Below, one piece after another: positions 45,097 through 62,602 of a stretch of 64,000 nt of DNA. The notes under the pieces were generated by a model, which was given only the letters and a program-made list of their open reading frames with translations, ran no database searches and had not been told where the DNA came from. Source of the DNA: Salegentibacter echinorum (GTDB taxonomy: Bacteria > Bacteroidota > Bacteroidia > Flavobacteriales > Flavobacteriaceae); contig NZ_FQVT01000006.1 in NCBI RefSeq assembly GCF_900129445.1, forward strand, positions 1-64,000. The letters are read 5' to 3'. Position 1 is the stretch's first letter. The number at the start of each line of letters is the position of its first letter. A program made the position numbers and the translations under genes.

Positions 45097-45111
45097 TTAT
45101 GTATTACATAA
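45097..45111. promoter_or_regulatory. 15-bp palindromic operator, copy 1 (TTATGTATTACATAA)
   Basis: Arms TTATGT / ACATAA with a 3-bp centre (ATT). The same arms occur at 61634-61648 and 62588-62602 (centre ATA). The core GT-nnn-AC is that of FadR-subfamily GntR repressors. It lies 14 bp before the beta-galactosidase start and overlaps the start of the transcript. Confidence 0.7.
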
Positions 45112-45124
45112 ACCTTAGTTATTC

Positions 45125-48100
45125 ATGAGACGATTATTTTTCACCCCTATTATCTTACTTTGTTTTAGTATAATTTATCCCTCTTTTGAGGTTTCTGGAC
45201 AGGAAGAAAAGCCTTATTATCAGGATCAACTAATAAACCAGGAAAACAGGATGCCCATGCGCGCCTTTTACCAGGTTTATGAAAGCGATCAATTGGCCAA
45301 AGACAACAATTGGAGGGCGTCTAACAAATATATTGATATTAATGGCACCTGGGATTTCGGTTTTGTTGAAAAACCAGCCGATGTTCCTACCGGTTTCTTT
45401 AAAGAAGACTTTAATACTTCCAATTGGAAAACGTTAGAAGTTCCTTCTAATTGGGAAATGCACGGTTATGGTTATCCTATTTATACCAACGAGAAATACG
45501 ATTGGCATAATTTAATGGATATAGACCCGCCCAATGTTCCAGAAAGTTATAACCCGGTGGGGATGTATCGTAGAACTGTAGATGTTCCCAAAGACTGGAA
45601 AGATAAAAAAATTGTATTGCATATTGGGGCCGCAAAATCTAACCTAAAAGTTTGGGTAAATGGTGAATATGTAGGCTATGGAGAAGATGGGAAATTGTTC
45701 CAGGAATTTGATCTTAGTGAATATGTAAAACCGGGAAAAAATCTTATAGCTTTAAAAGTAATGCGATGGAGCGATGGCTCTTTTCTTGAAGACCAGGATT
45801 TTTGGCGAATGAGCGGAATTACCAGAGAAAGCTTTTTAATAGCGAGAGAGCCGGTATATCTAGAAGATTTTTATGTTGTACCAGAGTTGGATGAAAATTA
45901 TAAAAATGCTAATTTAAAGGTACACACCCAGTTTTCAGCCTTACCAAAACGCGATAAGCACAGCTTAAAAGTTGAACTTATAGACGGTGATAAAATTTTA
46001 GCTTCCGAAGAACGTAAAGCCAGCGAATGGAAACAGGATAGTATAGTAAATTTTGCAGTAAATAATCCTGAAAAATGGTCAGCTGAAACCCCTAATTTAT
46101 ACGATCTAAAATTTACACTTAAGGATAGGAGAAGTAATACAAAAGAAGTAATTATCCAGAAAGTTGGTTTTAGAAGTGTAGAAATTAAAGACGGACAGTT
46201 ATTGGTGAATGGCAAGCCTATTCTTATAAAAGGAGTAAATAGACACGATACCGATCCTTCTACCGGTCAAACCATGACACGGGAACGTATGGAACAGGAT
46301 ATTAAGGTGTTAAAAGAGTTTAATTTTAATGCGGTACGAACTGCACATTATCCTAATGATAATTACATATATGAACTAGCAGATAAATATGGACTTTATG
46401 TAGTAGATGAAGCTAATATTGAATCTCATGGTATGGGTTATTCCTTAACACGTACCCTGGCTAACGATCCAACCTGGGAAAAGGCGCATTTAGAGCGTTT
46501 ATCTAGAATGGTAGAGCGTGATAAGAACCATCCTTCTATTATTATATGGAGTATGGGCAACGAAGCGGGAAATGGTTATAACTTTTACAGAGGGTACAAG
46601 TTGATAAAAGAAATGGACCCCACCCGGCCTATTCAACACGAAAGAGCTATTCTGCCCTGGCAACCAAAAGGACAAATGAACGTAGAGTGGAATACTGATA
46701 TAATTCCGCCAATGTACCCATCTATTGCAGATATGAAAGAATATGCCAAGGATCATCCAAATATGGATCGTCCTTATATTATGTGTGAGTATGCGCATGC
46801 TATGGGAAATAGTATAGGGAACTTCGTAGAATACTGGGATTTTATAAGAAGTCACAGAAATTTTCAGGGTGGTTTTATATGGGATATGGTAGATCAAAGT
46901 ATTTATAAAACCTTGGAAGATGGAACCGAAATCCTTGCTTACGGAGGGGATTTTGGACCAGATGATGTACCCAGTGCTAATAATTTTTTAAATAACGGGG
47001 TGTTTAGCCCAGAGCGGAATCCAAATCCCCATGCCTGGCAGGTTAAAAAGGTACAACAGGATATTCATACAAAACTGAAGGATAAATCAGGGGAAATTAG
47101 CGTTTACAATGAGCGATTTTTTAAAGACCTCTCAGATGTTAAGCTAAGCTGGGAAGTAGCTTTAGATGGGGAAGTAGTAGCCTCGGGAGAATTAGATGAA
47201 CTTAATATTGCTCCCCAGGAAACTAAGGAGTTTGAGCTTCCATTAAATTTAAGCGGAAAAGAATATAATGAAGCCTTTATAAATATTACCTATACCCTTA
47301 AAGAAGACACCCACTTTTTAAAGCAGGGTTATGCGATTGCTGAAGAGCAATTAACATTGAAAGAAATGGAAGCTTCAGATTTGGAAATAACTTCAGCAGG
47401 AAAACTAAATGTTGAAAATGGAAATACTGAACTAAGACTTACTTCAGAAAAAACCAGTTTTATTTTTGATAAAAAAACAGGCTTTTTAAAAGAATATAAA
47501 ATTGACGGACAGGATGTGATCAAAAATGGCTTCGAGCTTCGACCTAACTTTTGGAGAGCACCCATAGATAATGATTATGGAGCAGGGCTTCAGGCAAAAT
47601 TAAAGCCGTGGAAGGAAGCTATGGAAAATCTAAAGCTAAAAAGCTTTAAACAGAATGTAGAAAATAGCTTGAATACTGTTATGGCTACTTATAGGTTGGA
47701 AAAAGTAAATGCCGATCTATCTCTTAATTACAAATTAAATGCTGAGGGAGAGATTTTAGTAGATTTCGATTTAAAGATAGATGACGATAAAGATGTTCCT
47801 ATGATCTTTAGAGTGGGAATGAAAATGGCTATGCCCGCAGGTTTTGACAATTTGGAATACTATGGTCGTGGTCCACACGAAAACTATGCCGATCGAAAGG
47901 AGACCGCGCTAATTAAAATTTACGAGCAAACTGTAGATGAGCAATACTATCCCTACATACGCCCACAAGAAACGGGAAATAAAAGTGACGTACGCTGGTT
48001 AACTCTAAAAGGAAACGGAGTTAATTTAAAAGTTACCGGGGATAAGCCTTTCAATTTTACAGCTTTGCACTATCTGGCAGAAGATCTTGATGATGGTGAA

Positions 48101-48274
48101 AAACGCGAGCAAAGACACGCTGCCGAGGTTGAAAAGAGGGATTTAACCAATCTATTTATCGACACAGCGCAAATGGGACTTGGAAGTATTAACAGTTGGG
48201 GTAGATTACCGCTAAAGAAATACTGGTTAACGGACAAGGAGTATAAATACAGCTTTAAAATAAGTCCTGAATAG
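45125..48274 (+). CDS. Glycoside hydrolase family 2 beta-galactosidase
   Basis: This 1049-residue enzyme is predicted to remove terminal beta-galactose. A signal peptide (to about 25) suggests export. The jelly-roll (about 40-240), Ig-like (about 245-350) and catalytic barrel domains are in usual order, with acid/base Glu480 ([12 protein letters not shown]) and nucleophile Glu555 ([13 protein letters not shown]). The C-terminal beta-sandwich region (about 760-1045) is of LacZ type ([26 protein letters not shown]). Neighbours suggest N-glycan galactose as substrate. Palindromic operator and -7 box lie just upstream; the PNGase F-like gene follows after 70 bp. Confidence 0.93.
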
Positions 48275-48288
48275 AATGTTCTGGGGAC

Positions 48289-48313
48289 CTCCCAGGTTTT
48301 AAAACCCTGGGAG
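48289..48313. repeat. Palindromic intergenic element, copy 3
   Basis: CTCCCAGGTTTT / AAAACCCTGGGAG, a nearly perfect palindrome with one bulged base, lying between the beta-galactosidase stop and the PNGase F-like start. It may lower read-through between the two genes. Confidence 0.55.
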
Positions 48314-48344
48314 CCCTTATAATTTGACATAAAAATTAATAGCA

Positions 48345-61360: not shown

Positions 61361-61602
61361 TTTTTGGGTTCAAGGTTCAACACCGCATCGTCCTTAGTCC
61401 TCGTTAACAACAAACCAAAATTAAACTAGCAGACCCAGTTTTCAGCATATAGATGTCAGGCACGCTAAAGTCCCCGCAACCCACAACTAGCAACCATATT
61501 CAGGCAAGGTCAAAGGTCAAACCCACAACCCATAACCCATAACTCATAACCCATAATCCATTACCCAAACAGAGAATACTTTCGAATATTTTTAAGATAA
61601 AA
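61361..61602. other. Intergenic with CCCATAA direct repeats
   Basis: 61520-61567 holds about six imperfect tandem heptamers of the type CCCATAA/CTCATAA, a low-complexity array. No gene. The rest leads into the nanA promoter. Confidence 0.5.
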
Positions 61603-61633
61603 TTTGGTTAAAACAATTATTGGTTTAAATTTG
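61603..61633 (+). promoter_or_regulatory. nanA promoter
   Basis: TTTG (61603-61606), 19 bp, TAAATTTG (61626-61633): complete match to the Bacteroidota -33/-7 consensus. The operator at 61634 follows without a gap, so a bound repressor would block initiation. Confidence 0.7.
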
Positions 61634-61648
61634 TTATGTATAACATAA
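61634..61648. promoter_or_regulatory. 15-bp palindromic operator, copy 2 (TTATGTATAACATAA)
   Basis: Arms TTATGT/ACATAA, centre ATA; identical to copy 3 and one base from copy 1. It begins right after the -7 element of nanA. Confidence 0.75.
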
Positions 61649-61660
61649 TACAATACTACT

Positions 61661-62566
61661 ATGCAGATTTTCGCAGCTACTTATACTCCTTTAAAAAAGG
61701 ATAACAGCTTTAACCCGGCGGTTATAGATGTTTATGCCAATCATTTAAAAGAAAATGATTTGTCAGGAATCTTTGTAAATGGTTCTACTGGTGACTTTGC
61801 GTCCTTAACTATAGCAGAGAGAAAAGAACAACTTGAGGCCTGGGCCAATAATAAAAAAGGTCTAAAACTTATAAATCACGTGGGTGATATTAGCCTTAAA
61901 AACGCGATAGATCTGGCTAAGCACTCCAGGGATAAAGCAGATGCAATTGCTGCCATTGCCCCTTTTTATTTTAAACCGGGAAACTTAGGTCAATTAATTG
62001 AATACTGTTCAAAAATTGCCGCCGCTGCACCGCAACTTCCGTTTTATTTTTATCATTTACCTGTTTTAACCAATGTAAATTTCGATATGCAGGAATTTTT
62101 GAAGAAAGCCATTGCCGAAATTCCTAATTTCCAGGGGATAAAATTTACTGAAAATAATTTAGTCGCTTTTCAGGAAGTAAACGGCAGCGCGAAAGGAAAA
62201 GATATTTTCTTTGGTGTAGATGAAGCTTTTCTTCCAGCAGTTGCAGCTGGATCTAAAGGAGCCGTAGGCAGTACTTTTAACCATTTAATGCCATTATATG
62301 CCAATATATTAAGAGCTATAGAAGAAGGTGATTTTAATGAAGCACAAAAATTACAAAGACTTTCCATCAGCTTTGTTAAAACTTTAGATCAGTACGGCGG
62401 CTTTAACGGTGGCGGTAAAAGCTTTATGAGAGCTTTAGGTGTAGATTGCGGACCCTCCAGGTTTCCACACACTACATTGAAGAATAAACAAATTGACGAT
62501 GTTATTGCGTCTTTCACTAAATTAGGCTTGGATAAATACCTAAAAATTAGCGATACGGTTAAATAA
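61661..62566 (+). CDS. nanA: N-acetylneuraminate lyase
   Basis: This 301-residue aldolase of the DHDPS/NAL superfamily is predicted to cleave sialic acid to N-acetylmannosamine and pyruvate. The Schiff-base Lys161 is in FQGIKFTEN, Tyr131 in YFYHLP, and a GSTGD loop (41-45) stands where E. coli NanA has GSTGE. YHLP, rather than the YNVP-type of DHDPS, and the glycan context favour sialate lyase. It has its own promoter with an operator (61603-61648), and a TonB receptor gene follows 90 bp later. Confidence 0.88.
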   Translation: MQIFAATYTPLKKDNSFNPAVIDVYANHLKENDLSGIFVNGSTGDFASLTIAERKEQLEAWANNKKGLKLINHVGDISLKNAIDLAKHSRDKADAIAAIAPFYFKPGNLGQLIEYCSKIAAAAPQLPFYFYHLPVLTNVNFDMQEFLKKAIAEIPNFQGIKFTENNLVAFQEVNGSAKGKDIFFGVDEAFLPAVAAGSKGAVGSTFNHLMPLYANILRAIEEGDFNEAQKLQRLSISFVKTLDQYGGFNGGGKSFMRALGVDCGPSRFPHTTLKNKQIDDVIASFTKLGLDKYLKISDTVK

Positions 62567-62587
62567 CTAATTTTTTTTAATCAATTA

Positions 62588-62602
62588 TTATGTATAACAT
62601 AA
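62588..62602. promoter_or_regulatory. 15-bp palindromic operator, copy 3 (TTATGTATAACATAA)
   Basis: Exact copy of the nanA site, 54 bp before the susC 3 start. AATATTTG (62626-62633) downstream is a weak -7 candidate, so here the site may lie near -33. Confidence 0.72.

Follow-up and report, generated by a model that had tools for sequence, protein, structure and literature searches.

The sialic acid repressor NanR of Escherichia coli belongs to the FadR subfamily of GntR regulators and binds (GGTATA)3 direct repeats cooperatively via a 32-residue N-terminal extension (PMC8012715; here and below, articles are cited from the sections available to us). In Bacteroides, NanR (BT0433 of B. thetaiotaomicron) is a ROK family protein predicted by comparative genomics (PMC3878776), and deletion of a nanR gene in B. 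fragilis leads to constitutive expression (PMC3969230), while sialic acid use in pneumococcus involves an RpiR-type NanR. In Capnocytophaga canimorsus, siaC lies downstream of the gntR-like gene CAPCA_MM1 and an epimerase gene (PMC2533406). Here, we describe a 15-bp palindrome in Salegentibacter echinorum, in the first 64,000 nucleotides of contig NZ_FQVT01000006.1 (C23:1-64000; the whole of this stretch is called the window). We propose, with a probability of about 0.85, that it is the operator of a FadR-subfamily GntR regulator encoded at 69084-69797, which would repress a sialoglycan gene set and be released by sialic acid.

The exact 15-mer TTATGTATWACATAA, a 3-bp centre flanked by perfect 6-bp inverted repeats, occurs at 45097-45111, 61634-61648 and 62588-62602, as reported in a preliminary description made from the sequence alone, and the window holds no other mismatch-free copy. 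The same description took these to be its only places; this holds for the 15-mer, which is found three times in the whole assembly (3,963,528 bases, 40 contigs), but its core is repeated at four further places shortly past the window end, in the same gene region. This core, the inner 13-mer TATGTNNNACATA, is found seven times in the 3.96-Mb assembly, all seven at C23:45098-98332, a single 53-kb sialoglycan region; a genome-wide scan for copies at unrelated genes left the exact matches confined to this glycan region. A first-order Markov model built on 112 kb of the contig gives a chance expectation of 3.9 copies per genome and ~0.05 in the 53-kb span, and seven copies in that span have a Poisson probability of ~2e-13. 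The sites are as follows:

45097..45111, no strand: palindromic predicted operator TTATGTATTACATAA, 13-mer core ending 14 bp 5' of the GH2 start codon
61634..61648, no strand: palindromic predicted operator TTATGTATAACATAA, core ending 13 bp 5' of the nanA start codon
62588..62602, no strand: palindromic predicted operator TTATGTATAACATAA, core ending 55 bp 5' of susC 3
69883-69897, beyond the window: predicted operator copy upstream of the GntR-FCD gene
88956-88970 and 89241-89255, beyond the window: predicted operator copies between susC 4 (minus strand) and the AGE epimerase gene (plus strand)
98319-98333, beyond the window: predicted operator copy 5' of the NanM-Kelch/sodium:solute symporter (SSS) fusion gene

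With up to three mismatches, the 15-mer is matched 18 times in the window against a shuffle mean of 12.9, and 18 was reached in 11 of 100 shuffles; this count being near chance, only exact sites carry signal. Across the genome, the 13-mer with at most one mismatch shows no excess (117 matches versus 129 for the reversed control), and the 15-mer with two mismatches is no more frequent than its reversed control. Degenerate matches were therefore considered as noise and left unused. A one-mismatch match of the 15-mer on contig C28, flanked by MltG-like and glucosaminidase-like genes (named from their translations, with no family scan), was taken as chance.

The preliminary description had assigned the palindrome to a FadR-type GntR repressor whose gene might lie past position 64,000. 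Such a gene lies 5.1 kb past the window end, with its own palindrome copy upstream at 69883. Its product carries a GntR winged helix-turn-helix (PF00392, 47.2 bits, cut-off 27) and an FCD domain (PF07729, 52.9 bits, cut-off 24.3), and no other FCD protein was found in the genome at an E-value of 0.01 or better. The GntR helix-turn-helix model matched three genes of the genome, one of them below the cut-off: this one, a MocR-type (C19) and a DeoR-type (C29) gene; the latter two were set aside as palindrome binders because neither is FadR-type. The structure model (mean predicted local distance difference test score, pLDDT, of 84.4) has an all-helical C-domain, with the first helix starting at residue 15. 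Among the 50 PDB matches listed by Foldseek, including 6az6, DhdR and NanR, query-normalised template modelling scores range from 0.33 to 0.52, low values that may reflect domain orientation. With its GntR winged helix-turn-helix, its FCD domain and a nearby AT-rich GT-N3-AC palindrome, the protein is a member of the GntR superfamily, FadR subfamily.

The proposed kinship with E. coli NanR stood in part. Both proteins combine a winged helix-turn-helix with an FCD fold and both go with a sialic acid gene set; the best NCBIfam model for the regulator is NanR, at 90.4 bits under a cut-off of 260, and identity to the NanR structure 6on4_A is 20% (Foldseek). The operators are built differently, since the predicted operator is a symmetric GT-N3-AC palindrome whereas NanR binds direct repeats; GGTATA repeats were not searched as such. 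Nor does the regulator carry the NanR extension of 32 residues: an ungapped phmmer alignment sets its residue 6 on NanR 23, leaving 14 residues before the NanR 32 position, and a MAFFT alignment puts the length difference further in, with 3 NanR residues before its M1. The NanR zinc ligands D172, H176, H222 and H244 and Arg128, which binds the carboxylate of N-acetylneuraminic acid (Neu5Ac; PMC8012715), align with E153 (for D172), H157, H204, H226 and R108, which are kept in 31/31 group members. However, these positions are filled alike in LldR, ExuR, GlcC and UxuR, so that residues common to other E. coli FCD proteins are not diagnostic of NanR orthology. In the tree, the 31 regulator rows form one clade (99/99) with the seven E. 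coli rows opposite; note that the outgroups are from E. coli only and that a long-branch warning applies. By the tests made, with a palindromic predicted operator, most of the sugar contacts missing (see below), a separate clade and an NCBIfam score below the cut-off, the regulator is not a NanR orthologue.

The comparison with the other described systems follows the same lines. Bacteroides NanR comes from the same phylum and acts on the same pathway (sialic acid and N-acetylglucosamine), but the families are unrelated, ROK versus GntR: Pfam gives GntR and FCD in the regulator, plus HTH_11 below its cut-off, and no ROK domain. The GT-N3-AC spacing of 3 is that of the ExuR, LldR, PdhR and GlcC operators (PMC4494728), and Arg45 and Arg49 of FadR are kept in 31/31 regulator-group members. 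The FadR-subfamily consensus is TKGT/ACMA, as against ATGT here, and an arginine at a DNA-contacting position of the helix-turn-helix goes with a G/C in the operator (PMC4494728); we take this position to be the one aligned with FadR Arg35, which is L, M, T, I or N in 31/31 group members and R in 7/7 E. coli proteins. A survey table of the subfamily gives 0, 1, 0 for Bacteroidetes, the first column being read as FadR on a presumed column order (PMC4494728). The CAPCA_MM1 locus, described with neither a function nor an operator for that gene, resembles the present one in combining a gntR-like gene with an epimerase and a sialidase (PMC2533406), and CAPCA_MM1 would correspond to the Capnocytophaga relatives of the regulator, which are 49-57% identical to it; in six Capnocytophaga loci, unlike in the present one, an exact palindrome is absent upstream of the regulator gene.

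We then compared the regulator-palindrome pairing in two sets that share genomes. The family set comprises 299 genomes, the present one included, with relatives accepted at an E-value of 1e-20 or better, from which stretches of up to 20 kb gave 29 loci in the 28 other genomes with the regulator. The species set draws on a single genome for each GTDB species; a relative is encoded in 414 stretches, of which the best 80 were kept. In the latter, a palindrome lies within 500 bp upstream of the regulator gene in 71 of the 80 loci (best 80 of 414), in line with the expectation that conserved copies would have a GntR gene nearby, and all 71 relatives with an upstream palindrome have nanA or the N-acetylmannosamine (ManNAc) epimerase gene in the locus. 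These 80 loci hold 170 sites versus 1 reversed-control site in 1.42 Mb, and include Salegentibacter, Gramella, Arenibacter, Maribacter, Muricauda, Polaribacter, Lutibacter, Neolewinella, Portibacter and Flavihumibacter. In the family set, the 13-mer stands beside the regulator gene in 24/29 loci (the misses L111, L119, L129, L132 and L133 are taken up below), with 62 sites versus none for the reversed word in 563 kb. Overall, this co-occurrence supports the earlier suggestion of an operator dedicated to a FadR-type regulator, with binding itself predicted from sequence.

The regulator is present in 29/299 family genomes, the present one included, and in 16 of 395 genomes drawn from the phylum, again counting its own (E-value 1e-35). 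nanA (1e-50) is found in 30 of the family genomes and both genes in 27 (Fisher P ~8e-33, uncorrected for kinship). Over 81 loci, i.e. the present one and the 80, a tracked gene could be assigned to 174 sites but not to 3 others, giving 244 site-gene pairs: GntR 72, epimerase 54, susC3 52, nanA 47, transporter 14 and others 5. The common layout, of which variants occur, is a site, nanA, a second site, susCD, the regulator gene, and a further site followed by epimerase, sialidase, GH20 and transporter genes. By comparison, among 18 nanA or epimerase loci in which no regulator gene is adjacent (13 from 12 regulator-free genomes, 5 from genomes with the regulator elsewhere), none has the 13-mer. 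Locus L260, the clearest case, has the same sialidase, epimerase and nanA genes with no regulator gene, susCD or palindrome in 20 kb, and thus constitutes a natural experiment in which the nan genes are retained while regulator and operators are both gone from the locus.

Outside the main loci, 20 distal regions were hand-picked among the matches listed, with AT-rich centres preferred; 14 of the 20 sites adjoin glycan genes (nanA, sialidase, transporter fusion, GH2, GH29, alpha-galactosidase, PNGase F and susC 4 genes), and the L218 site, at a stretch edge, is uninformative. Whole-genome counts of the 13-mer range from 3 to 12 in 28 regulator genomes, among the matches listed, versus 1 to 10 for the controls, and from 0 to 13 in 18 regulator-free genomes, chosen from listed genomes without a match, versus 0 to 19. 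The palindrome signal is one of position, not number, and genome totals do not separate regulator-bearing from regulator-free genomes.

Bacteroidota promoters usually carry TAnnTTTG as their -7 element. We confirmed that it precedes two of the three window palindromes, within 3 bp at one and directly at the other, and none was seen in the 80 bp inspected before 62588:

45086..45093, plus strand: TAnnTTTG promoter element TATCTTTG, 5' of the GH2 gene (from sequence), 3 bp from the palindrome
61626..61633, plus strand: TAnnTTTG promoter element TAAATTTG, 5' of nanA (from sequence), abutting the palindrome

In the 81 loci, TAnnTTTG starts exactly 11 bp 5' of the 13-mer in 44/54 epimerase pairs, against a background of 0.0012 per offset, and lies 9-12 bp before it in 22/47 nanA pairs. 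A dimer bound at this fixed spacing at the epimerase would overlie the transcription start, which makes repression the most likely action of the protein. In the proposed mechanism, the ligand-free dimer would bind each palindrome and, at the several promoters where this overlaps or adjoins the expected start of transcription, block expression of nanA, the NanU-linked susCD, the ManNAc epimerase operon and the NanM-transporter fusion gene, as well as the GH2-PNGase F pair, the GH29 fucosidase gene and its own gene. Imported sialic acid, together with a metal ion, would occupy the FCD pocket, upon which the dimer would leave the DNA and the set would be switched on. Neu5Ac is proposed as the inducer and would be preferred over ManNAc: with its metal ligands and the arginine for carboxylate binding conserved, the pocket argues for a carboxylate ligand held together with a metal.

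The alternative that survives best, to which we attach roughly a one-in-eight chance, keeps this regulator and operator and makes the protein an activator, or a dual regulator, rather than a simple repressor. It would suit the sites of susC3 and the transporter, which have no start-site geometry, and RefSeq labels 5/7 of the E. coli FadR-type proteins fetched as dual, ExuR and UxuR being repressors; however, a site just 3' of TAnnTTTG, as at the epimerase and nanA pairs counted above, would block RNA polymerase.

Several observations weigh against the main proposal. Only 22/47 nanA pairs have TAnnTTTG within 9-12 bp, and susC3 sites have none at a fixed distance (2/52 at the commonest offset), as is also the case for the GntR and transporter sites, so that the start-site block is not uniform. 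The NanR contacts to Neu5Ac (N165, R203, H214, N215, S218 and Q221) are not conserved in the regulator alignment; with these lost and the kept residues common to other FCD proteins, the ligand could differ. nanA occurs without the regulator in G032, G183 and G249, and the regulator without nanA in G144 and G297. The exact upstream site is missing in 9/80 loci: L151 is truncated by a contig end, a single mismatch separates L179 and L211 from the exact site, and in the six Capnocytophaga loci (L193, L196, L204-L207), where no nanA was detected in the fetched stretch, the best match carries 1 to 3 mismatches. In the family set, no good site adjoins the regulator gene of L111 or L129, L119 has one mismatch, and L132 and L133 have variants. 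Finally, the relatives do not count as independent samples, many being closely related species (e.g. Arenibacter), and several genomes are in both sets.

The L132 and L133 regulators are divergent (35-41% identical by tblastn) and encoded beside nanA, with a perfect TATTTGT-N3-ACAAATA upstream; a second L132 gene has ATATTGT-N3-ACAATAT. Operator and regulator may change together there, and these divergent regulators with their altered palindromes add to the natural experiment seen in L260. The palindrome is bordered by A/T on either side in all 174 distinct sites; an outer GTAT/ATAC arm accompanies just one side of 122 sites, both sides of 2 and neither side of 50.

The genes around the sites are the following:

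45125..48274, plus strand: GH2 beta-galactosidase (Pfam)
48345..49538, plus strand: PNGase F-type N-glycanase, directly after the GH2 gene (Pfam)
61661..62566, plus strand: nanA-type sialic acid lyase of the DHDPS family (best NCBIfam model NF003164, below cut-off)
62657..64000, running on to 65956 beyond the window, plus strand: susC 3, a SusC/RagA-type TonB receptor
65970-67478, beyond the window: NanU-like SusD (NanU is the best NCBIfam model, below cut-off)
67831-69024, beyond the window: BNR sialidase-like gene
69084-69797, beyond the window, minus strand: GntR-FCD regulator gene, 237 aa
98372-101059, beyond the window: NanM-Kelch/SSS fusion

The GntR-FCD gene is divergent from a GH29 fucosidase gene, and susC 4/susD with sulfatase genes are divergent from the AGE epimerase operon, which also holds GH20, sialidase-like, GH20 and SASA esterase genes; the epimerase scores 647 with NCBIfam, above the cut-off of 600. 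In many relatives, the regulator gene is divergent from the epimerase gene; here, about 20 kb lie between them (C23:69800-89236), a block with a DDE transposase gene (72835-74061) and GH20, GH16 and sulfatase genes. The protein of C23:98372-101059 is a single polypeptide in which a NanM-type Kelch sialate epimerase domain is fused to a sodium:solute symporter, with a further example at L222:3157-5766 and homologues in many relatives' loci; it might couple anomer conversion and import. An imperfect run of CCCATAA-like repeats lies at 61520-61567, just 5' of the nanA promoter, and genes for a LytTR response regulator and a histidine kinase with TPR repeats lie at 42130-44996, immediately 5' of the first predicted operator.

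Two further readings would assign the sites to other regulators, and both appear very improbable. The somewhat better of them is a Crp-like global regulator, since the predicted Bacteroides motif TATGTTnTAnAACATA has the TATGT/ACATA arms in common with the palindrome (PMC3878776). However, GT and AC are 6 bp apart in that motif and 3 bp apart here, its 6-bp-spaced form has 4 genome matches, with none in the 45-98 kb region and one at C23:116866, and it is the 3-bp-spaced form that accompanies the GntR gene. Slightly less probable still is that the sites are controlled by the LytTR response regulator and histidine kinase, whose genes adjoin the first one, as the palindrome tracks GntR and nan genes in the loci tested, the window histidine kinase, used as a query, was listed in 0/29 loci, and direct repeats are the usual LytTR targets. 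Chance occurrence of AT-rich palindromes, to which the 13-mer counts lend some colour, being at or below the reversed control in 16 of the 18 regulator-free genomes (above in 2) and not clearly raised in regulator genomes, is practically excluded by the confinement of all seven copies to one region (P ~2e-13) and by the 170 versus 1 sites in relatives' loci.

We found no account of the regulator-operator pair in the open-access literature, in the sections available of articles including PMC3878776, PMC4494728, PMC8012715, PMC4324048, PMC2533406, PMC3969230, PMC3658417 and PMC10017367, with subscription journals and RegPrecise outside this scope. The genome paper on Flaviramulus ichthyoenteri Th78 describes sialic-acid genes, and the words GntR and NanR are absent from the text available; this is, by strain name, probably the same organism as Wocania ichthyoenteri Th78 (L187), which has the regulator and two palindromes.

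Hybrid two-component or sigma/anti-sigma systems are typical of such glycan loci. Tentatively, and at somewhat less than even odds, the regulator may instead be an independently evolved sialic-acid sensor of many Flavobacteriaceae and some other Bacteroidota, by which sialic acid would act, through one cytoplasmic GntR switch, as master inducer of a complete N-glycan attack (surface SusCD, PNGase F, beta-galactosidase, fucosidase, sulfatases and sialidases), with an asymmetric operator whose outer arm is possibly a third half-site. What we predict is a FadR-subfamily sialic-acid regulon that, by the tests made, is not orthologous to that of NanR, and that has an operator of its own and takes in a broader set of genes. 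If true, this would provide a regulon map for Flavobacteriaceae and their relatives, an operator scan could locate sialic-acid genes, and the induction of the N-glycan machinery would become testable.

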